From: an uncultured Alphaproteobacteria bacterium
GTDB lineage: Bacteria; Pseudomonadota; Alphaproteobacteria; Micropepsales; Micropepsaceae
Length of the DNA stretch: 47,969 nucleotides
NCBI GenBank assembly: GCA_903837555.1
Contig: CAILUV010000089.1
Location: 1 to 47,969 of the forward strand
Direction: 5' to 3'
This document shows, one piece after another, positions 13,973 to 26,133 of this stretch. The position numbers and the translations under genes are program-made. The number at the start of each line of letters is the position of its first letter. Position 1 is the first letter of the stretch. The notes below the pieces were generated by a model that searched no databases, had not been told where the DNA came from, and saw only the letters and a list, made by a program, of their open reading frames with translations.

Positions 13973-14905
13973 TTACTTCGGCTCAAAGTTATGCAGGATA
14001 GGCGGTCTCGGGTTGATGGGTATGCGGGTCGAGATCGGCGAGTTGGGACTGTTGGTGGCGCGATGCCAGCGTCCCTTGGCAGCGGTCACGACATCGCCCT
14101 GATCGGCCTCGAAATAGGGAAAGCCTTCAATCTTGTAGCCCAGCTTGCCTTCCATGATGAACCAGAACTCCGCCGCATCGATGTGAAAGTGGCCCTTCTG
14201 GGTGTCGGGCGGTACCGGCACGCCAGGCCCGCGCACCAGGTTTGCCGTGAAATGATCATCGCGAACGAAGGGGCCGCCAATCTTCTTGCCGTCCGCGACA
14301 TTCTTCAGGAAGTCGAAATAAACGGGGTTGGTGTCGCGGTCCGCCCAGGCGCCGGGTGTGCCTGTGGCCTTGACATAAACCCGGCCAGGCACTGGCGTGG
14401 GTATTTCGGACGCGGGATAGAGCAGCGGCGCGCCAGCCTGGCGGACTTCAAAGCGCAGCGAAGGCGCGTCGCCCACGGTTTCCAGCATGTAGATATGCCG
14501 GGCCGGTACATTGACCATGAAGCCCTTGGAGGCGGTGAAAGGCGCAGTGCCTTCGATCGTCACGCGGATCGCGCCAGACTGGACGATGAAGATCATGCGG
14601 TCATCGGCAAAGAACTGGCGCTTGGTCTTCCCACCAGCTCCCATCGAGATGTAATCGGCTTCCTGATCCTCGTTGCGGACAAGTGGTTGTATCCAGTCCG
14701 GCTTTCCGCGATGTGCGGCCAGAATATCTGAGAGTTTCCAATGGACTTTGTTTGGCGCGATATAGGGCGTGAGCTTTTCGGGCTTCGCCGCCCAGTATTC
14801 CCCAGACATACGCGCGGGTGAGGGAGGCTGGACCGGTGCTTGTGCTGCAGCCGACCCTGAAAGCGCAATTGCTGCAACGCAGAAAAATCGGAAGCTGATC
14901 TTCAT
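13973..14905 (-). CDS. Exported bicupin protein
   Basis: This 310-residue protein has a signal peptide (MKISFRFFCVAAIALSGSAA, cleavage at AQA) and two cupin-like halves. The first half (about 90-160) carries a recognisable beta core but few metal ligands. The second half contains GHFHIDAAEFWFIMEGKL and a later GRWHRATN, the H-x-H, Glu and His set expected for a metal-binding cupin. It is a plausible periplasmic isomerase, dioxygenase or binding protein; the substrate is unknown. It lies upstream of the dehydratase on the same strand with a 48-bp gap and is divergent from the PhoD-like gene. Confidence 0.8.
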   Translation of the reverse strand: MKISFRFFCVAAIALSGSAAAQAPVQPPSPARMSGEYWAAKPEKLTPYIAPNKVHWKLSDILAAHRGKPDWIQPLVRNEDQEADYISMGAGGKTKRQFFADDRMIFIVQSGAIRVTIEGTAPFTASKGFMVNVPARHIYMLETVGDAPSLRFEVRQAGAPLLYPASEIPTPVPGRVYVKATGTPGAWADRDTNPVYFDFLKNVADGKKIGGPFVRDDHFTANLVRGPGVPVPPDTQKGHFHIDAAEFWFIMEGKLGYKIEGFPYFEADQGDVVTAAKGRWHRATNSPNSPISTRIPINPRPPILHNFEPK

Positions 14906-14941
14906 TATATCTCTCCGTAATCTGAAACCGGGTCGTTCAAG

Positions 14942-14961
14942 ACAATATCATTTGCTATTGT
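14942..14961. promoter_or_regulatory. Inverted repeat ACAATA-N8-TATTGT in a divergent promoter
   Basis: Six-bp arms lie in the 87-bp gap between the divergent bicupin and PhoD-like genes. AT-rich symmetry in a GC-rich genome suggests a regulator site or overlapping -10 elements. The call rests on position only. Confidence 0.3.
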
Positions 14962-14992
14962 AACCCATGCGACGGGCAATTGGTGAGGGATC

Positions 14993-16618
14993 ATGACGAC
15001 GCGGCGGGATTTTCTGGCTGGTGCGAGTTCGGCGGGCCTTTCTTCTGCCCTCCCTTCCGGCGCCGCGGCGCAGGCCTCCGCCGCGCAAGCGGGACAGTGG
15101 GATCAGGGCCGGCTCTTGCATCTGTTGCCTACCGTCAGTCACAATCGCTTTCTCCTCAAGGCGTCATTTGATGGCGCTCTCGATTCTGTGCCGGAGCTCA
15201 TGGCGGGAAGTGTTCGGGTGCGCGGCCAGAAGAACACCGCAAGGGGGGACTTCTGGCAGTTCGATGTGCCGGGGCTTGAGCCAGGCACACCTTACCGCTT
15301 GTCCTTGACCGGCGGCGATGGCCGGGCCCTGTGCGAGCCGTGGCAGCTCTCGACCTTTCCGGCCCCCAATGCCTTGCCGTCCCGGTTCAAACTGATGATT
15401 TACACCTGCGCGGGCGGACACGATGCGTTCAATGCCGGCCTGCCCGACGGGAAGACTGCCTTTTTGCCGGCGGCGCTGCGCCGTCGGCTGCTGATGCGCG
15501 GACTGTCTTTCGGGCCCGACGCCATTGTTGCTATCGGTGATCATGTCTATTGGGATTTGCGGGCGCCGCGATTGTCGAAAACGCTCGGCGCGGACCCAAA
15601 AGCCATTGCCTATGCCGGCACCTTTGATCGCGCACAACCTGTGTTCGGTGGCCAGAACGAAGTCACCTTGCGCCGGGCTGCCGGTCCGCAAATCGTGCCC
15701 TTGTATGGCGCCCTGTGCCGCTCGACGCCGGTCTTTTTCATTACGGATGACCACGACTATTTCGACAATGACGAAGCGACGGACGAGGCTGTGACCTTTC
15801 CGCCCGATCCTTTCATGATCAATCTCGCGCGGGCGACCCGCCAGCTCTACTATCCAGAATTTCTTCCCGACCTGAACCGCCCGGCGGGCCTTCCGGGGGC
15901 ATCGGCTGGCGACCGGGCACCGGGCGTGGCGGAGGCGTTTGGAACGCTGCGGTATGGGCGGCTGGCGGAACTGCTGCTCTATGATGTTCGCCGCACCATG
16001 ACCTTGGGGGGCCCCACAGCCGTTTTTCTCCACGACACGACCGAAAGCTGGCTCAAGGCGCGCATGGCGGCACGTGACGTCGTGCATGTTCTGAATGTGC
16101 CCTCAAATCCGCCGGGCTGGAGTGCAGGCAAATGGGGTGAATGGTACCCCGACATTCTGGGGGTCGACGGCAAGCTGACAACCGCCGTAACCAAGCCCTA
16201 CTGGCAGCAAGGCTGGCTCCGCCAGCATGACAGGCTGATGGCCGCCATCTCCGGGATGCCGGGCCGGATACCGCTCATTATCAGTGGAGACCTCCATGCC
16301 ATCGCCGAAGGTCGCATGCTTCGCAGCGGGGCACTGGATCTGAGCAAGAACCCCGTGGTGACGGCGCTTTCGGGGCCGCTTGGCGCCGGCGACATGCTTT
16401 GGCCATCGGCGTTTCGCGGCGTCGGCGCCACGCCGCCGTCGCATCTGACCATGCAGGAGAACCTGAAGCCGCTAGAAGAGCACGGCTTCCTCATCGTCGA
16501 TTTTACGCCGGAGGATATCACGCTCAACTTCTTCCGCTTCAATCCCCATCAGCAGACTCCGAGTGATATCGACGAGCTCAAACCATTTCGCGTGACGAAA
16601 TTGGTGCGGCCGGCCTGA
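14993..16618 (+). CDS. Tat-exported PhoD-like metallophosphoesterase
   Basis: This 541-residue protein has a classic Tat leader (TTRRDFLAGASSAGLSSALP). A fibronectin-like N-terminal part ends at about residue 125. The metallophosphatase core of the PhoD family follows: YTCAGGHDAF, AIGDHVYWD, ITDDHDYFDND and ISGDLHAIAEG supply the Asp, His and Asn metal ligands. PhoD-type enzymes are periplasmic phosphodiesterases or alkaline phosphatases using calcium and iron. Divergence from standard PhoD (GDHVYWD in place of GDYIYE) leaves the substrate open. It is monocistronic as far as can be seen, divergent from the bicupin. Confidence 0.88.
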   Translation: MTTRRDFLAGASSAGLSSALPSGAAAQASAAQAGQWDQGRLLHLLPTVSHNRFLLKASFDGALDSVPELMAGSVRVRGQKNTARGDFWQFDVPGLEPGTPYRLSLTGGDGRALCEPWQLSTFPAPNALPSRFKLMIYTCAGGHDAFNAGLPDGKTAFLPAALRRRLLMRGLSFGPDAIVAIGDHVYWDLRAPRLSKTLGADPKAIAYAGTFDRAQPVFGGQNEVTLRRAAGPQIVPLYGALCRSTPVFFITDDHDYFDNDEATDEAVTFPPDPFMINLARATRQLYYPEFLPDLNRPAGLPGASAGDRAPGVAEAFGTLRYGRLAELLLYDVRRTMTLGGPTAVFLHDTTESWLKARMAARDVVHVLNVPSNPPGWSAGKWGEWYPDILGVDGKLTTAVTKPYWQQGWLRQHDRLMAAISGMPGRIPLIISGDLHAIAEGRMLRSGALDLSKNPVVTALSGPLGAGDMLWPSAFRGVGATPPSHLTMQENLKPLEEHGFLIVDFTPEDITLNFFRFNPHQQTPSDIDELKPFRVTKLVRPA

Positions 16619-16748
16619 GAGGGGGCTCGGGTCGGTAGCGAGGCGGGAGCAACCACCCCGGTGTATAATAATTATGTTTCCAATGAGATAGGGTAGCCCG
16701 CGACGGATAGTTCCATAACGTCACCTTAAAAAAGAAGGATTTGCGGTC

Positions 16749-17498
16749 GTGAAAAAAGCCACCGTTCTTTTCTTGTCCGGCTCCCTCGCAATCACGACGG
16801 CTGCGCCCGTATTGGCGCAGGCCCAGAGATCCGGTCTTGCTCCTGTCCCAGTCTACGAGGTGCATCGCGCCAGAACTGCGCCGCGCATCGACGGCGAGCT
16901 CAACGATGCCACTTGGCAAGCGGCCAAGCCGGTGACCTTCGTCTTCCCCTGGGCCGACCAGACCGGCAAGAAGCAGAAGACCGTTGCCCGGCTGACGTGG
17001 GATAACGACAATCTCTATGTGGCCTACGCGTGTGAAGATAGCGACATTGTCGCGGTGCATACTCAGCCTGACGACCCAACCTACAAGGACGATGCTGTCG
17101 AAATCTTTATTGCTCCGGCGGGTGTCAAGAACTTGTACCTGGGCCTTGAAATGAATGCCCGCGCTGTACTGTATGACTATCTTTACCCGTTTCCCCAGCG
17201 CTTGATAAAGAACTACAACCTGCGGGGCGTGCAAGTGGCCGTTTCGATCAATGGCACGCTCAGCGTTACCGGAGACCAGGACGAAGGCTGGAACCTTGAG
17301 GTGGCGATTCCGTGGCGCGCTTTTTCCGATCTAACAGATAACCCTGTTCCCAGGATCGGCGACCGGTGGATCGCGAATATGAATCGCTGGGATGGCACGG
17401 AGCCCAACCGCCGGCTTTCACAATGGTCGGATTCGGGGATGGTGAAGCCGAACCCGCATTTTCCGGACCGCTTCGGTCAGCTGCTGTTTGTGGAATAG
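16749..17498 (+). CDS. Exported CBM9-like carbohydrate-binding protein
   Basis: The protein is 249 residues from a GTG start with AGGA nine bases upstream. The signal peptide is KKATVLFLSGSLAITTAAPV with LAQA cleavage. The whole mature protein matches the family 9-like carbohydrate-binding/DOMON fold: APRIDGELNDATWQAA, then LTWDNDNLYVAYACEDSDI, DDAVEIFIAP, GWNLEVAIPW and WIANMNRWDG. These proteins bind sugars or hemes; none of the catalytic modules usually fused to CBM9 is present. It probably works with the neighbouring periplasmic sugar enzymes. Confidence 0.85.
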   Translation: MKKATVLFLSGSLAITTAAPVLAQAQRSGLAPVPVYEVHRARTAPRIDGELNDATWQAAKPVTFVFPWADQTGKKQKTVARLTWDNDNLYVAYACEDSDIVAVHTQPDDPTYKDDAVEIFIAPAGVKNLYLGLEMNARAVLYDYLYPFPQRLIKNYNLRGVQVAVSINGTLSVTGDQDEGWNLEVAIPWRAFSDLTDNPVPRIGDRWIANMNRWDGTEPNRRLSQWSDSGMVKPNPHFPDRFGQLLFVE

Positions 17499-17924: not shown

Positions 17925-17954
17925 AAAAAAGGCCGTGGTTACAAGGCCTTTTTT
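17925..17954. terminator. Bidirectional rho-independent terminator
   Basis: AAAAAAGGCC and GGCCTTTTTT form a 10-bp stem around a 10-base loop. The stem touches the stop codon of the minus-strand binding-protein gene. The T-runs on both sides allow termination in both directions. Confidence 0.8.
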
Positions 17955-18756
17955 ATTTCGCGCCTTTGCGCGGGTCGATGCCGCGCGAATGCCAGATCGG
18001 GAAGGTGCCCGGCTGGGTGGCGTAGGCGATGAACTGCTCGCCCAGCGACTGGTTCTTGGCTTTGGCCGGTACGGCGGCGACAGCGTCGAGGTAGCGGCCA
18101 AACTCTTCCGGGATCGGTCCGACGACGACCAGATTATCCCATTTCAAGATCTGGCTGATGTTCTGCACCGCCATGTCGCCTTCGTTGCGCGCCAACGCGT
18201 CCCCGCCTTCGCCGTAAAGGCTCGGCGCGTGCTTCACCCCGGCCAATTCCGGCAGGTCGAACAGGCTGCTCAGCATATAAGAAGTGCGGCTGCAGCCGGC
18301 GCTGCCGGGTGTGCCGTTGCAGCGCGAGTGGAGAACAAGGTTCGCCGATTTCAGGGCGGCTATGAACTTCTCCTTGGTGGAGATGTCAGGGATTCTCGAA
18401 CCTTTCCGAACGGCAAGTCCCTGGTACGAACGGCCTATGCGTTTGCGGGTGCCGGCCTTGATGGCGCCCTTGGCGGTAACTTCGTCCATATGATCAGCGG
18501 GCAGGAAGACGGCATCGGCCGCGCCATCGGTGGCGTTGGCCATGACCTGTTCCATGCCGCCGCTCTTGACGATGACCTTGATGCCGGTCTCCGCTTCGAA
18601 TGCCTTGGTGATGATGTCGAGGCCGCCATTGTTGGTGAAGCCGGGCGTGGCCACGATGACCTCACGGGTCTGGGCGTGTGCGGGTGCGGGCAGGACAAGG
18701 AGTGCAACTGCCGTGAAGCCAACAGCCGCCCTGAGCGCGGCCTGAAGAATTCGCAT
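17953..18756 (-). CDS. Orphan periplasmic substrate-binding protein (ModA-like fold)
   Basis: The protein is 267 residues from the ATG preceded by GGGAGG at six bases. The frame continues upstream, but the signal peptide (MRILQAALRAAVGFTAVALL, then PAPAHA) fixes the start. The mature part (VIVATPGFTNNGGLDIITKA, AVFLPADHMDEV, GLAVRKGSRIPDI, GGDALARNEGDMAVQNISQI) matches type 2 extracellular binding proteins of the molybdate/tungstate or thiosulfate group. No ABC permease or ATPase lies nearby. A Cys pair (HSRCNGTPGSAGCSRTSY) is uncommon for ModA. It follows the two FMN oxidase genes on the same strand with a 41-bp gap, so a shared transcript is likely. Confidence 0.78.
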   Translation of the reverse strand: MRILQAALRAAVGFTAVALLVLPAPAHAQTREVIVATPGFTNNGGLDIITKAFEAETGIKVIVKSGGMEQVMANATDGAADAVFLPADHMDEVTAKGAIKAGTRKRIGRSYQGLAVRKGSRIPDISTKEKFIAALKSANLVLHSRCNGTPGSAGCSRTSYMLSSLFDLPELAGVKHAPSLYGEGGDALARNEGDMAVQNISQILKWDNLVVVGPIPEEFGRYLDAVAAVPAKAKNQSLGEQFIAYATQPGTFPIWHSRGIDPRKGAK

Positions 18757-18797
18757 GGAGCCTCCCGGGTTCTGTTGGCGGCGTCGCTCTGCCGCCG

Positions 18798-20015
18798 TTA
18801 CACGAAGTTGGTCTTTACTGTCGACTTGTCGATATCCGACAGCCTGGCGCATCCGGCGGCAGCGGCCACCTGGACCAGTTCCTGCTGCAGGATTTCGATC
18901 AGGCGTTGGGCGCCCGCGGTGCCGAAGGCGCCCAGGCCCCAGCGCGCGGCGCGTCCCAGGCAAACGCCGTCAGCGCCCAGCGCCAGCGCCTTGAAGATGT
19001 CGGCGCCGCGGCGGATGCCGCTATCGAACAGCACGGGGATGCGGCCATTCACGGCGGCGGCGATCTCGGGCAGGATTTCCAGCGTCGAAGGACCATAATC
19101 CATCGAGCGTCCGCCATGGTTGGAGATGATGATTGCATCGGCGCCATGCGCGATCGCCAGCTTGGCGTCTTCGCCGTCCTGAATGCCTTTGATCAGCATC
19201 GGGCCCTTGATCATCTTGCGGCACGTGTCGATATAATCCCATGTGTACCACAGGCGCGCGGTGTTGACCCGGTAGCGCGCCGCGCCGGTCAGAACCGCGG
19301 TGCTGCTGCCGGTGCCGACGCCCGCGGTGCGCACACGCCCGCCCAGATTGCGGTCCATCAGCGAGCGTTCGTAATGGGCCGCCTGCTGATCGACGGTGAC
19401 CGTGATGCCCTTGCAGCCGGCATTCTGATAGGTGTCCATCCATTGCTGGGTCACGGCGATATTCTGCTGCGGATAGAACTGCGCCCACAGCGTGCCGCCC
19501 GGCGCGGCGGGCGCGACCTGGGCGACCGGCGTGCTGGTGTTGGTGCTCAGGATCATCGGCGTGCCGGAAGCCGCGGTCGCGGCCTTGAACATGCCGATCT
19601 CGCCATCGGGATGCAGCGGCACCATCGCCGCGGTTGGCGCAATCAGGATCGGGAATTTCATTTTCACGCCCAGCAGTTCGGACGAAAGATCGACCTGCGA
19701 GGCGGCAATGGGCGTGCGCGCCGCCGGAATGTCGACCCAGTCGAAGGCGTGGCGGTTGCGCTGCAGGTTGAATTCCGACCCGTCGCCATGCGCGGTATAG
19801 TCATAGACCGGCTGGCTCACATTGCCGCGAAACACAAGTTCGAAATCGTAAGAGGTTTGCATCTCGGCTAGGCCCTTGGCGCGATAATGTTCGCTGAAGG
19901 GGCGTGGATCGATCTGCGCCATGGCGGCAGTGACGGGCGCGCCCGCCACAAGACCGGCGACGCGGGCCAGCGCATGGCGCCGGGATGGAAGCTCGAATTG
20001 CTTGATGTCAGCCAC
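18798..20015 (-). CDS. FMN-dependent alpha-hydroxyacid oxidase/dehydrogenase, intact, with RR leader
   Basis: The protein is 405 residues from a GTG at 20015 preceded by CGAGGACCAACC; the longer frame would start inside the upstream gene. It belongs to the glycolate oxidase/lactate dehydrogenase (LldD) family. The active-site set is complete: the Tyr in VYDYTAHG, the Tyr in LWAQFYPQQ, the Asp in TVTVDQQ, the Lys in MLIKGIQDG, and the His and Arg in ISNHGGRSMD; the phosphate-binding DSGIRRG and GRAARWG follow. A leader with SRRHALARVAGLVAGAP and AMAQ suggests Tat export, unusual for this family. It overlaps the end of the paralogue upstream by 8 bp, so the two are translationally coupled. Confidence 0.9.
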   Translation of the reverse strand: MADIKQFELPSRRHALARVAGLVAGAPVTAAMAQIDPRPFSEHYRAKGLAEMQTSYDFELVFRGNVSQPVYDYTAHGDGSEFNLQRNRHAFDWVDIPAARTPIAASQVDLSSELLGVKMKFPILIAPTAAMVPLHPDGEIGMFKAATAASGTPMILSTNTSTPVAQVAPAAPGGTLWAQFYPQQNIAVTQQWMDTYQNAGCKGITVTVDQQAAHYERSLMDRNLGGRVRTAGVGTGSSTAVLTGAARYRVNTARLWYTWDYIDTCRKMIKGPMLIKGIQDGEDAKLAIAHGADAIIISNHGGRSMDYGPSTLEILPEIAAAVNGRIPVLFDSGIRRGADIFKALALGADGVCLGRAARWGLGAFGTAGAQRLIEILQQELVQVAAAAGCARLSDIDKSTVKTNFV

Positions 20016-21138
20016 GGTTGGTCCTCGCCAGGGGCGTGGGCGCATGTATGCGCATCACGCTGGAATCGATGGATGCGATGGAGGGGCGGCCGCACATGCA
20101 CATATAGCGGCCCAGTTCGGTCTGCAGCATTTCGACAACGCCCTGCACGCCTTCGGCGCCATAGGAAGCCAGGCCCCACATCACGGGACGGCCCACCAGC
20201 ACGGCTTTCGCGCCAAGGCCCAGCGCCTTGAGGATATCGGTGCCGCGGCGGAAGCTGCCATCGACCAGTACTGGCACCTGGCCGCCAATCGCCTGCACCA
20301 CAGGCCCAAGCAGCAGCAATGTGCCGGGAAGCGCCGACGCATCGCCGCCGCGCCAGTTCGATACCGCCACGCTCTTTGCCCCGCGTGCGACGGCTTCCTT
20401 TGCGTCTTGCGGGCGCGTGATGCCTTTCACGATCACGGGCAAAGACGTGTTCCTGGTCACGGTGTCGATGGCGGCCCAGTCGATGGGCGTGGCATCGGGT
20501 TCGTTGGCGTTGACGGTCACCACCAGGGCTCTGGCTTTGGCGGCCTCTGCGCCTTCGAGCACATCCTTAAGCTTGGGGCTGTTTGCATAGACCTGCAGCC
20601 ACAAAGGTGAGGTAGCAGCCTGGGCGATCTGCGCCAGCGGCATGCTGGCATCGCTGCTCACCACCATTGTGGCCTTTGCTGCGCCGGCGCCGCGGGCCGT
20701 GGCGATTTCGCCCTCGGCATGGAAGCGTTTTTGATCGGCGATGGGGCCGACGATGATCGGTGTGAAGTGCTGGTCGCCGAACAGCGTGACCGTCAGGTCC
20801 AGATCCCGCGTAGGGATGTTCATGCGCGGGCGCAGGGTGATGCGGTCGGTGACGGTGCGGTCGCTGCCCGTGATGAGCGCAGCTCTGGCCGGTCCCAGCC
20901 GGTTGCGCGCCTCGGCTTCAAACTGGGGCACATTCACAAGGTCGGCACGGGGCGCGGGCAGCGGCGCCGGATTGTCTGCGCGCAGCACCGCCGTCGCCGA
21001 TTGTGTGGCGCCAAGCGCGGGCATCGCCGTCGTCGCCACCAGGCCAGCGGCGGTTGTGCCCATCACGCCAAGCGCCTGGCGGCGTGACGCCCCGCCAGCG
21101 CTTGTTTTCTCGGCCGCAATCGGCCCGTCGTCTGACAT
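20008..21138 (-). CDS. Degenerate FMN alpha-hydroxyacid oxidase paralogue lacking catalytic residues
   Basis: The protein is 376 residues from the ATG that opens a Tat-like leader (ASRRQALGVMGTTAAGLVAT, then PALGA). It aligns with the glycolate oxidase family throughout (FTPIIVGPIADQKRFHAEGE, VPVLVDGSFRRGTDILKALG, GRPVMWGLASYG), so the FMN phosphate site looks kept, as do the Lys in VIVKGI and the Tyr in LWLQVYAN. The residues that do the chemistry are changed: the usual SNHGGR is SNWRGG (His to Trp, Arg to Gly), the TVD Asp is Asn (TVNAN), and the N-terminal YDY is absent (ALITGSD). The open frame and close coupling to the intact paralogue argue for a retained non-catalytic partner rather than a decaying gene. 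Confidence 0.85.
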   Translation of the reverse strand: MSDDGPIAAEKTSAGGASRRQALGVMGTTAAGLVATTAMPALGATQSATAVLRADNPAPLPAPRADLVNVPQFEAEARNRLGPARAALITGSDRTVTDRITLRPRMNIPTRDLDLTVTLFGDQHFTPIIVGPIADQKRFHAEGEIATARGAGAAKATMVVSSDASMPLAQIAQAATSPLWLQVYANSPKLKDVLEGAEAAKARALVVTVNANEPDATPIDWAAIDTVTRNTSLPVIVKGITRPQDAKEAVARGAKSVAVSNWRGGDASALPGTLLLLGPVVQAIGGQVPVLVDGSFRRGTDILKALGLGAKAVLVGRPVMWGLASYGAEGVQGVVEMLQTELGRYMCMCGRPSIASIDSSVMRIHAPTPLARTNRG

Positions 21139-21345: not shown

Positions 21346-21614
21346 GGCAGGTCATGATCAATCGCGGCTTTGTGCCTGCAACGCATAAGGGCGATTACGC
21401 GCGTCCTTCCGGCCGCGTGACGGTTACAGGCTTGATGCGGATGCCCGAACCGGACGGACGCTTCCTTCGGCCCAACCGGCCCGATGCGGATTTGTGGTAT
21501 TCGCGCGATGTTGCCGCCATCGCGCATGCGCGCAAGCTGGGACCAGTGGCGCCCTTATTTTTCGATGCGCAAAAAGCGGCGGGCTATCCGATCGGCGGGC
21601 TGGGTTCACGCTAG
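21330..21614 (+). pseudogene. SURF1 fragment (cytochrome oxidase assembly protein), both ends missing
   Basis: The translation DTGAGQVMINRGFVPATHKG, then VTVTGLMRMPEPDGRFL, DADLWYSRDVAAIAHARKLG and PVAPLFFDAQKAAGYPIGG, is the central-to-C-terminal part of SURF1, about 90 of the usual 230 or so residues. The first transmembrane helix is absent. The frame ends in a stop right after PIGG, where SURF1 normally continues into NNHL-YALTW and the second helix. No cytochrome oxidase genes are nearby. It is a relic joined to unrelated sequence. Confidence 0.75.
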
Positions 21615-21640
21615 GCGGGGACCAAACCGATGTGAAGCCC

Positions 21641-22227
21641 ATGCCCCGCCCGACCGATTACCGACCGAATATCTTATGGCTGCTGCTGGGCATTCCCCTG
21701 GCGCTCATTACCTATTGGTACCTGAACGAGGCGATTTCCTACGGCGAGTATATCCAGCATAGGGGCCGTATCTCCGTCTGGCTGCTGCTGCTGACACTGG
21801 CGGTGACGCCGCTGAGGCTGTCGTTTCAGGGGAGGAGCTGGTCGCGCGGGCTGGTCCAGAACCGGCGCTATTTCAGCGTGGTATCCTTCGCCTATGCGCT
21901 GCCGCATGTCGTCGCCTATCTCATCCGCAAGGAAACGTTCGCGCTGGTGGCGGAGGAGGCGGCCTATCCCGAGATCTGGACCGGTTGGCTTGCGCTGGTC
22001 ATTTTCGCCGCCCTGGCCCTTTCCAGCAACAACTGGTCGATGCGCCGGCTGGGCCACAACTGGGGCATTTGTACCATCTGGTGCATCTGGCGGCATTGCT
22101 GACCTTTGCTCATTGGGTTTTCAGCGCCTTCGATCCCTTGACAGCCTATTTGCATCTGGCTGTTCTTGGCGTGCTGGAAGCCGTCCGGTTATGGAAGACC
22201 CACGGCCCGCGCAAGTTAACGCAATGA
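21641..22227 (+). pseudogene. msrQ: MsrQ-type heme membrane protein with a one-base frameshift
   Basis: The gene starts MPRPTDYRPNILWLLLGIPL and continues through helices of the ferric-reductase-like domain (GRISVWLLLLTLAVTPLRL, FAYALPHVVAYLI, WTGWLALVIFAALALSSNNW). After RRLGHNW the frame is lost at the G-run 22062-22065. One more G would restore HLYHLVHLAALLTFAHWVF and the end WKTHGPRKLTQ. MsrQ supplies electrons to the periplasmic methionine sulfoxide reductase MsrP, which is not in this window. Either the gene is inactivated or this is a sequencing error in a homopolymer. The stop region overlaps the next gene's leader. Confidence 0.75.
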
Positions 22228-23819: not shown

Positions 23820-23900
23820 TAAAGTCTCAGCGCCTATCCCCCTGATAAAACCGTGTTAAAAGGGCTGAAGACTAGCAGAGCCGGTCAAAAGGGGATCATT

Positions 23901-25181
23901 GTGGCAAGACGCCTGCTGGGGACACTTTATATCCAGGTGCTGATCGGCATCGTGCTGGGCCTGTTGGTCGGCGCGCTGTGGCCGGAGACCGGCGCGGCCC
24001 TCAAGCCGTTGGGCGACGCCTTCATTAAGCTGATCAAGATGGTGATCGCGCCGGTGATCTTCTGCACCGTGGCGCTGGGCATCGCCCAGATGGGCGACAT
24101 GAAGAAATTCGGCCGCATTGGCGGCAAGGCCATCCTGTATTTTGAAGTGGTCTCGACACTGGCGCTGGTCATCGGTCTTGTCGTGGGTCATTTCGTGCGC
24201 CCCGGCGCGGGCTTCAACATCGATCCCGCCACGCTCGATCCGTCAGTCACCGCCGCCTATGTCAGCCGCGCCCAGGCCGACAGCGTCACCGAGCACCTGA
24301 TGCACATTATTCCCGACACCTTTCTGGGCGCCCTGACCAGCGGAGATCTGTTGCAGGTTTTGCTGGTCGCCATCCTGTTCGGCTATGCCTGCACCAAGCT
24401 GGGCGAAGCGGGCCGCACGGTGGCGGGCGGGCTGGAAAAGGTGATTAAGGTCTTTTTCGGCATCATCCATATGGTGGTGCGGCTGGCCCCGATCGGCGCG
24501 TTCGGCGCCATGGCCTTCACTATCGGGCGCTATGGCCTGGAATCGCTGTTGCCGCTAGGGGCGCTGGTCGCCTGCTTCTACATCACCTGTTTTCTGTTCG
24601 TGGCCATCGTGCTGGGGCTCATCACCAAGGCAATTGGCTTCTCGCTGTGGCGCTTCCTGACCTATATCCGCGAGGAATTGCTGATCACGCTTGGTTCGTC
24701 GTCCTCCGAACCGGCGTTGCCCAAGCTGATGGAAAAAATGGAGCGGCTGGGCGCGGCGCCCGCCGTGGTCGGCCTGGTGGTGCCCACGGGCTACAGTTTC
24801 AATCTCGACGGCACCAACATCTATCTGACGCTAGCGATCCTGTTCCTGGCCCAGGCCACCAACACCGATCTCAGCGCCATGCAGATGGTGACCATCATCC
24901 TGGTCGCCATGCTGACCTCCAAGGGCGCCAGCGGCGTGACCGGTGCGGGCTTCGTAACCCTGGCCGCGACGCTCAGCGTGGTGCCCGCCATTCCTATGGT
25001 GGCGCTGGCAACCATCGTGGGCATCGACCGCTTCATGAGCGAGTGCCGGGCCATCACCAACATCATTGGCAACGGGGTCGCGACCCTGGCGGTGGCGCGC
25101 TGGGAAAAGGCGCTGGACATGAACCGGCTGCGCGACGAACTGAAGCGGGGCCCGGCTGCCGTGGAGCAGAATCTGGGCTGA
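23901..25181 (+). CDS. dctA: C4-dicarboxylate:cation symporter DctA
   Basis: The protein is 426 residues from the GTG at 23901, chosen because AAGGGG precedes it by six bases and the family starts at this point ([20 protein letters not shown]). Strong DctA landmarks run along the whole length: [98 protein letters not shown]-type hairpin 2 and [20 protein letters not shown]. It imports succinate, fumarate and malate with protons or sodium across the inner membrane. No dctB/dctD two-component genes are adjacent. Confidence 0.94.
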
Positions 25182-25245
25182 GAACGCTACGCAATTGCCA
25201 CGATCCGCATAGTATTTTTGCATCATTGTTCTCAGGGAGATTTTC

Positions 25246-26133
25246 ATGACGTCCATCCGCCTGGCCCTGCTGGCCGCCGCCGCCAACTTCACCCTGATGG
25301 GCGCCGCCTCGGCTCAGCCCGTGCCGTCCACCGCCGATGTTTCCAAGCAGCGGGTCTTGACCAATCTCGGACTGACCAATTCGGAATGCATCCGCTATGA
25401 CGCGGCCAACGACCGCTACATCATCTCGAACCTGAACACGCGCGGCCCGGAAAATAACGGCTACATCTCGCTGATGTCGCCCGATGGCGCGATCACCAAC
25501 CTCAAATTCATCGAAGGCGGCAAGAACGGCGCCACGCTGATCGACCCGCTGGGCATTTATATCCAGAACGACATGATTTGGGTGGCCGACATCACCCATA
25601 TGCGCAAGTTCGACCTGAAGACCGGCGCGCCGCGCGGTGAGGTCGCCCTGCCGGGCGCCAACCGCCCCAACGATATTTTCGTGACCAAGGATGGTACGGC
25701 TTATATCAGCGACAACGGTGGTACGGCTGGCACCATCATCCGCGTTTCGCCGTCGGGACAGGTTTCGCTGGTGCATCCGCGTGACGACATCATGGAAAAG
25801 CCCAATGGCGTGGCGGTGATGCCTGATGGCACGCTGATCCATGCGGGCCGCGGCGTGAACATTTCGTTCCGCAACGCCCAGACCGGACAGCTCATCAAGG
25901 AAAAGAGCCTGCCGACGGCGCAGTTCGACGCGCTGATCCCGTTGGCGGATGGCAGCATTCTGGCGGCCAGTCAGGTCGGCAAGAATGTCTACAAGGTCTC
26001 GCCCATGGGGGAGATCACCGAGGTCGCCAAGGAAATCGCGATTCCGGCGGCGATCGGTTACGACATCAAGCGCAACCGCCTGCTGATTCCGCAGATCGCA
26101 CCGGGCACCATCACCATGGTGGATCTGCCCTAA
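25246..26133 (+). CDS. Exported SMP-30/gluconolactonase-like propeller
   Basis: This 295-residue protein has a signal peptide (MTSIRLALLAAAANFTLMGA, then ASAQP). The mature part is a six-bladed propeller of the SMP-30/lactonase-like type (DAANDRYIISNLNTRG, MIWVADITHMRKFD, NRPNDIFVTKDGTAYISDNG, PNGVAVMPDGTLIHAG). The Asn and Asp residues in NRPND and in SDNG resemble metal ligands of lactonases, but the match is partial. It is a possible periplasmic lactone hydrolase or sensor. Start ATG has GGGAGATTTTC upstream. Its stop overlaps, tail to tail, the stop of the RND-adaptor fragment. Confidence 0.82.
   Translation: MTSIRLALLAAAANFTLMGAASAQPVPSTADVSKQRVLTNLGLTNSECIRYDAANDRYIISNLNTRGPENNGYISLMSPDGAITNLKFIEGGKNGATLIDPLGIYIQNDMIWVADITHMRKFDLKTGAPRGEVALPGANRPNDIFVTKDGTAYISDNGGTAGTIIRVSPSGQVSLVHPRDDIMEKPNGVAVMPDGTLIHAGRGVNISFRNAQTGQLIKEKSLPTAQFDALIPLADGSILAASQVGKNVYKVSPMGEITEVAKEIAIPAAIGYDIKRNRLLIPQIAPGTITMVDLP

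Follow-up and report, generated by a model that had tools for sequence, protein, structure and literature searches.

A constrained FMN hydroxy-acid oxidase paralogue with an altered catalytic site, encoded in overlap with an intact twin

The two FMN_dh genes and their predicted proteins

The window, which is the whole stretch of 47,969 nucleotides that was analysed, comes from the genome of an uncultured alphaproteobacterium of the Micropepsaceae (2.46 Mb, 101 contigs, 98% complete). It contains two adjacent FMN_dh genes on the minus strand, called A and B here. Gene A (20008..21138, minus strand) is an open frame of 376 codons plus a stop, and encodes an FMN_dh-fold protein with an altered catalytic site. 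Gene B (18798..20015, minus strand) encodes a paralogue with intact catalytic residues (PF01070, E-value 3.5e-94); it begins with GTG and carries an SRRHALARV motif. An earlier note made from the sequence alone had described an intact paralogue with an 8-bp overlap; B indeed keeps SNHGGR (19107..19124, minus strand; from the translation), TVD, and YDY, and from its GTG at 20015 it overlaps the end of A by 8 nucleotides (GTGGCTGA; 20008..20015, minus strand). The two proteins share 31% identity over 302 aligned columns.

An alternative in-frame ATG for B is located upstream, at 20045. The start at 20015 is favoured, because the identical 8-nucleotide overlap is found in 11 of the 12 pairs compared. 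The overlap is present at 13 of 15 A-B junctions; the remaining two, both in genome G061, have a 2-nucleotide gap. Such a stop/start overlap suggests coupled translation of A and B. A solute-binding protein gene (SBP_bac_11; 17953..18756, minus strand) is a possible third gene of the operon. Its ATG at 18756, chosen by eye, lies 41 nucleotides past the stop of B on the same strand, and the family match (E-value 3.2e-18) was obtained for a longer frame (17953-18963). Beyond this gene, the window encodes cupin-domain and CBM9-like proteins (13973-17498), with a PhoD-like hydrolase, recognized by eye, between them. A ferric reductase-like transmembrane gene (21494-22102), MsrQ-like by eye, is divergent from A.

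The N-terminal twin-arginine signal region of A (21010..21138, minus strand; its end is approximate and set by eye) contains SRRQALGVM from residue 18. Inspection of the N-termini identified the SRR motif in all 13 A rows and all 12 B rows. From these motifs we infer that A and B use the Tat route, by which A would be exported in a folded state together with B.

The profile search assigned A to the FMN_dh family (PF01070) with an E-value of 2.7e-71 and 240.9 bits, compared with a curated cut-off of 24.9. Predicted from the 86-sequence alignment described below, the model of mature A is a β8α8 barrel of the glycolate oxidase type (pLDDT 91.6, pTM 0.91); an earlier model made from 13 A sequences alone was poor (pLDDT 54.7), and was not used. 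The nearest solved structures are human HAO1 and the plant glycolate oxidases (Foldseek E-value 6e-31). In the VIA comparison with human glycolate oxidase (2rdt), the model gave a Z score of 40.1, with 300 residues at 2.1 Å. Annotation at the family level would label A an oxidase. The identities MftD, LldD, L-lactate dehydrogenase, and L-lactate oxidase were all rejected, with scores under the NCBIfam cut-offs. The best NCBIfam match was the pre-mycofactocin synthase MftD (TIGR03966), a family member with other chemistry; A reached 158.3 bits where the cut-off is 470.85, so it is not MftD.

Catalytic and FMN-site residues across orthologues

The alignment contained 14 A, 18 B, and 54 other family proteins. 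These 86 rows were obtained from 184 matching frames, after dropping those that shared the same last 150 residues. Only frames of at least 300 codons and closed by a stop were aligned, so the A fragments of G019 and G043 (contig C234) are outside the alignment counts. The seven catalytic and substrate residues of the family are taken to be Tyr24, Tyr129, Asp157, Arg164, Lys230, His254, and Arg257. A of the window retains Tyr129 and Lys230 of these seven; the column of the loop-4 Arg is unsure.

SNHGGR is replaced by SNWRGG in A (residues 260-265; 20344..20361, minus strand), as seen in both the frame translation and the alignment. At the position of the catalytic base His, A has Tyr in 13 rows and Trp in one, compared with His in all 72 other rows. 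The substrate Arg that follows the His motif is Gly in 14/14 A rows (Arg in 71/72 other rows). The catalytic Asp of TVD, the partner of the His, is Asn in A of the window (TVN, residues 208-210; 20509..20517, minus strand); it is Asn in 11 and Gly in three of the A rows, and Asp in 71/72 other rows. The first substrate Tyr falls in a gap in all 14 A rows. The loss of catalytic residues is fixed across the orthologues (14/14). The G043 fragment reads SNYRGGN, and the G019 fragment stops before the motif. A separate case is a family member from the same class (L127), which has SNHGGN and is without the substrate Arg, with the His kept.

Loop 4 of A is shortened and its lid is mostly absent (20476..20508, minus strand; 86-row alignment). 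Measured from Thr208 to Lys238, the loop has 26-36 residues in the 14 A rows versus 65-111 in the 72 relatives. At the column of the Arg that starts loop 4, one of the 14 A rows has R and the A loop of the window has none; the loop alignment is unsure here, with B shifted by one.

The flavin lysine is kept (Lys238; 20425..20427, minus strand), as K in 86/86 aligned rows. The FMN-phosphate region DGSFRRG...VGRP (residues 290-318; 20185..20271, minus strand) is also kept, with D293, G294, R297, G316, and R317 in all 14 A rows. Using a list of FMN-site residues that we presume from glycolate oxidase, these five positions and P132, A134, S161, Q182, Y184, T208, and K238 were all conserved in 14/14 A rows. 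The FMN-adjacent changes are an Ile or Met at the place of Thr78 and S295 for a Gly. At the Thr78 place, A has I in eight rows and M in six; I or V is frequent in the intact relatives too. The retained FMN positions of A may have a structural role.

The translation bears out the open frame, SNWRGG, TVN, the flavin Lys, and the FMN-phosphate motifs as given in the earlier note. The missing YDY of that note corresponds to a segment of about nine residues; the first N-terminal helix is present in the alignment. Neither the short loop 4 nor the twin-arginine motifs appear in that note. As for the conservation of SNWRGG, the motif is altered in all 14 full-length orthologues, but its Trp is unique to the window genome, the other 13 rows having Tyr. 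An intact SNHGGR in the orthologues, which the note would have taken as a sign of simple decay, occurs in none of the 14. A frame error or assembly artefact can be ruled out, as 13 genomes have the frame uninterrupted.

Several residues near the site are fixed in A: Y262 in 13 rows (W in one), R263 in 13 (H in one), G265, S295, and F296 in all 14, and D163 in 13 of 14. D135 is another conserved A-specific residue close to the site. Compared with PF01070 enzymes such as HAO1, lactate oxidase, Hmo, and flavocytochrome b2, A shares the sequence family, the barrel, the FMN-site positions, the flavin Lys, and the Tyr of QxY. It differs in having no catalytic His, post-motif Arg, Asp partner, or first Tyr, in its far shorter loop 4, and in its own conserved residues at several of the lost catalytic places.

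Selection, distribution, and phylogeny of the pair

The Nei-Gojobori dN/dS ratios, which are simple estimates without codon-bias correction, had a median of 0.21 for A (78 pairs) and 0.23 for B (66 pairs). For the mature part of the 14 A genes, the median was 0.166 (91 pairs), with 0.14-0.19 in every segment; the signal and linker gave 0.58. Column identity averaged 81% among 13 A proteins and 74% among 12 B proteins. A is under purifying selection, and is kept as carefully by evolution as its intact twin. Pseudogene decay confined to one strain would agree with the lost catalytic residues of A. This reading is refuted by the 14 full-length orthologues with shared replacements and by the low ratio in each mature segment, and its probability is close to nil. 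The same ratios answer the earlier note, in which an unconstrained sequence would have meant decay in this strain.

Positions were counted as A-specific when the same residue was found in at least 13 of the 14 A rows and in at most three of the 72 other rows. There were 42 such positions among 303 testable ones, including D135, D163, Y262, R263, S295, and F296. They were weakly enriched at the active face (11/48 versus 42/303 overall, P = 0.045, uncorrected). The enrichment was at least as strong in the N-terminal part (14/61, P = 0.022, uncorrected), so the pocket does not stand out.

These positions bear on the second most likely reading of A, an FMN enzyme with chemistry of its own, in which a rebuilt site would handle a different substrate, which might be what B produces. 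The rebuilt site would consist of Tyr (or Trp)-Arg in place of His-Gly, an Asp at the position of Trp108, a Ser after the FMN-binding Gly, and an almost absent lid. The replacements are uniform in A, which keeps this reading alive; the twelve FMN-site positions are retained, and the active face is weakly enriched in A-specific positions. In this family, one substitution can be enough to change the reaction, as reported for Hmo Y128F (PMC6677016). On the other side, the N-terminal part is equally or more enriched, with so short a lid the site is exposed, the substrate Arg is Gly in every A row, and no reaction can be named. New chemistry is given a probability somewhat under one third. It seems rather improbable that A founds an FMN subfamily with a pocket rebuilt for a new flavin reaction, and forms half of a periplasmic two-FMN complex with an ordinary oxidase.

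Full-length A genes (at least 65% identity) were found as 14 genes in 13 genomes of one alphaproteobacterial genus, of which 69 genomes were searched. Two fragments were also found at contig ends, the N-terminal part of A in G019 and the C-terminal part in G043. Of these 16 A genes, 15 run into B; the remaining one is cut off by its contig end. G061 contains two full A-B pairs; G043 contains one full pair and one pair with A cut by the contig end. The coupling of A to an intact copy, as claimed in the earlier note, is thus confirmed at the gene level.

Both genes were found in 13 of the 69 genomes, A only in one, B only in one, and neither in 54 (Fisher P = 5e-12, with relatedness ignored). 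Co-occurrence, which the earlier note had proposed as a check, holds with two exceptions, and a contig end is near in both. G019 has the A fragment at a contig end. G062 is 58% complete, and its contig opens inside a type-II B, followed by a type-I B with no A between them. G039 was scored as having both genes; its contig breaks off after residue 66 of B.

A quick tree of the 86 rows, which carries a warning of long branches meeting, divided the B proteins into two types; the G041 copy belonged to neither. In the same tree, the A genes paired with type-II B in G066 and G010 grouped together. Type-II B genes without an adjacent A were found alone in G028 (contig C32), behind an A-B pair in G054, and, in G062, preceding another B. 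At the G028 locus (L083, 4441-9498), the gene lies amid genes for a solute-binding protein, a 3-keto-disaccharide hydrolase-like protein, DUF6282, and NHL repeats. The distances among 13 A proteins were correlated with those among their 13 partner B proteins (r = 0.57; as high in 3 of 10000 permutations). Gene linkage and correlated distances would also follow from inheritance as an operon, and are no proof of contact.

In a 36-row tree, A and B each formed one clade (100/100 for each) on long stems. A, B, and two intact single proteins, L086 from the same genus and L088 from the same class, formed one group against 16 others (99/96). With this grouping, the ancestral state was most likely intact, and A was altered on its own stem. 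A and B as sisters gave an AU p of 0.418 in this tree.

No match to A was found at E 1e-40 in the other genera of the family (27 genomes; the search of the order covered the same 96 genomes). In the class (385 genomes, E 1e-32, at most five scored candidates per genome), only its own genome and G295 were recovered, and the G295 protein has an intact SNHGGR. In the phylum (398 genomes, E 1e-45, at most four scored candidates), only its own genome was recovered. Two strict peptide patterns, which could miss divergent kin, identified 13 loci in the contig database, all apparently from the genus of A. The A clade has a fixed loss of the catalytic site, retained cofactor positions, and a gene stitched to an intact twin.

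Possible roles of A and the genes around the pair

That A has lost nearly all catalytic residues and is nevertheless conserved suggests either a helper subunit or an enzyme whose active site was rebuilt. The reading in the earlier note, a pseudo-enzyme subunit or an FMN enzyme with new chemistry in a hetero-oligomer with the intact partner, is thereby supported in part. Oxidation of 2-hydroxy acids by the known route is improbable for A, considering what the loss of the same residues does in relatives. In Hmo, the variants R163A, H252F, and R255A lost activity, and R163L was termed low-activity (PMC6677016). The equivalent Tyr, Tyr, Arg, and His of lactate oxidase hold the substrate in position and accept its proton (PMC4908395). 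A contribution to catalysis is reported for loop 4 (PMC10153336). In a family survey, at least one of the seven conserved residues was absent in 8/10 inactive proteins and in 2/14 active ones (PMC8491902). The two active enzymes mean that such a loss is no proof of inactivity in A. Conversely, a Pediococcus protein with conserved active-site residues showed no lactate activity (PMC7039449); intact residues are therefore no proof that B is an oxidase.

The reading we prefer, with about an even chance, is that A is a constrained subunit which retains FMN, has no hydroxy-acid oxidase activity, and joins B in a complex. A would then be a catalytically rewired paralogue produced along with its intact twin. 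Binding of FMN by A is most likely, and might serve to keep such subunits together. In the proposed mixed oligomer, B would oxidise a 2-hydroxy acid and A would not; the role of A might be in the assembly, stability, or control of B. The residues D135, D163, Y262, R263, and S295 count against this reading, since a silent subunit would not require so much conservation near the site. The changes at FMN-adjacent positions and the type-II B genes that lack a neighbouring A also weigh against it.

Homo-oligomers with an almost invariant active site are the usual form of FMN hydroxy-acid oxidases; the rice GLO1 and GLO4 proteins are an exception. The mixed A-B oligomer is preferred based on the lost site of A and on two precedents. 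The Pediococcus relative is tetrameric through FMN, although its authors judge FMN-dependent assembly to be special to that enzyme (PMC7039449). The rice paralogues GLO1 and GLO4 form hetero-oligomers in which both are active, and an inactive paralogue, GLO5, also exists (PMC5549332). The likeness to A-B lies in family paralogues that share mixed oligomers, which are proposed for A-B, and in the existence of an inactive copy. The rice genes are on different chromosomes, whereas the A and B genes overlap, and GLO5 is not named as an oligomer partner in the available part of that report (PMC5549332).

A function as an assembly or export helper, which would load FMN into B or assist its Tat export and stay outside the final enzyme, is consistent with A preceding B, the SRR motifs on both proteins, and the stop/start overlap that suggests coupled translation. 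It is unlikely, given that each protein has its own motif, and that the FMN-site positions and a complete predicted barrel are preserved in A. The kept FMN-site positions might also mean that the FMN of A passes electrons between B and an acceptor. In glycolate oxidase tetramers, the flavin N5 atoms of adjacent subunits are about 45 Å apart (PMC10153336), which is too far for effective transfer in that arrangement, and a relay is very improbable.

Pairs of a pseudoenzyme and an active paralogue are known in general, with the altered copy retained beside the intact one, as A is beside B. A plant indole case reportedly also has a pseudoenzyme beside its active paralogue. No comparable altered/intact pair in the FMN family was found in the open-access literature, the only literature covered; A-B is the first such pair among FMN hydroxy-acid oxidases as far as that literature shows. 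The A-B pair would be a natural test of the role of FMN apart from hydroxy-acid oxidation.

Besides FMN_dh, no gene family was common to all A-B loci at the clustering used, which gave no clue to the substrate. In the window, a dicarboxylate symporter gene (SDF) lies near the pair, beside that of an SMP-30/NHL-like protein (23853-26133); the match of the latter is weak (24.3 bits, under the Pfam cut-off). By clustering, both families are also near the pair in G059 and G068, and the symporter alone in G066. This neighbourhood may indicate that B acts on a dicarboxylic hydroxy acid.

At three loci, L089 (5531-11317, G068), L090 (9171-14881, G059), and L091 (3754-8687, G060), A and B are followed by an MFS transporter and then a third FMN_dh with SNHGGR. 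The gene order was taken from the clusters, with Pfam run on one member per family. An SDR gene follows next after the third FMN_dh in G068 and G059. In the window genome, the matching third FMN_dh is on a separate contig (C22).
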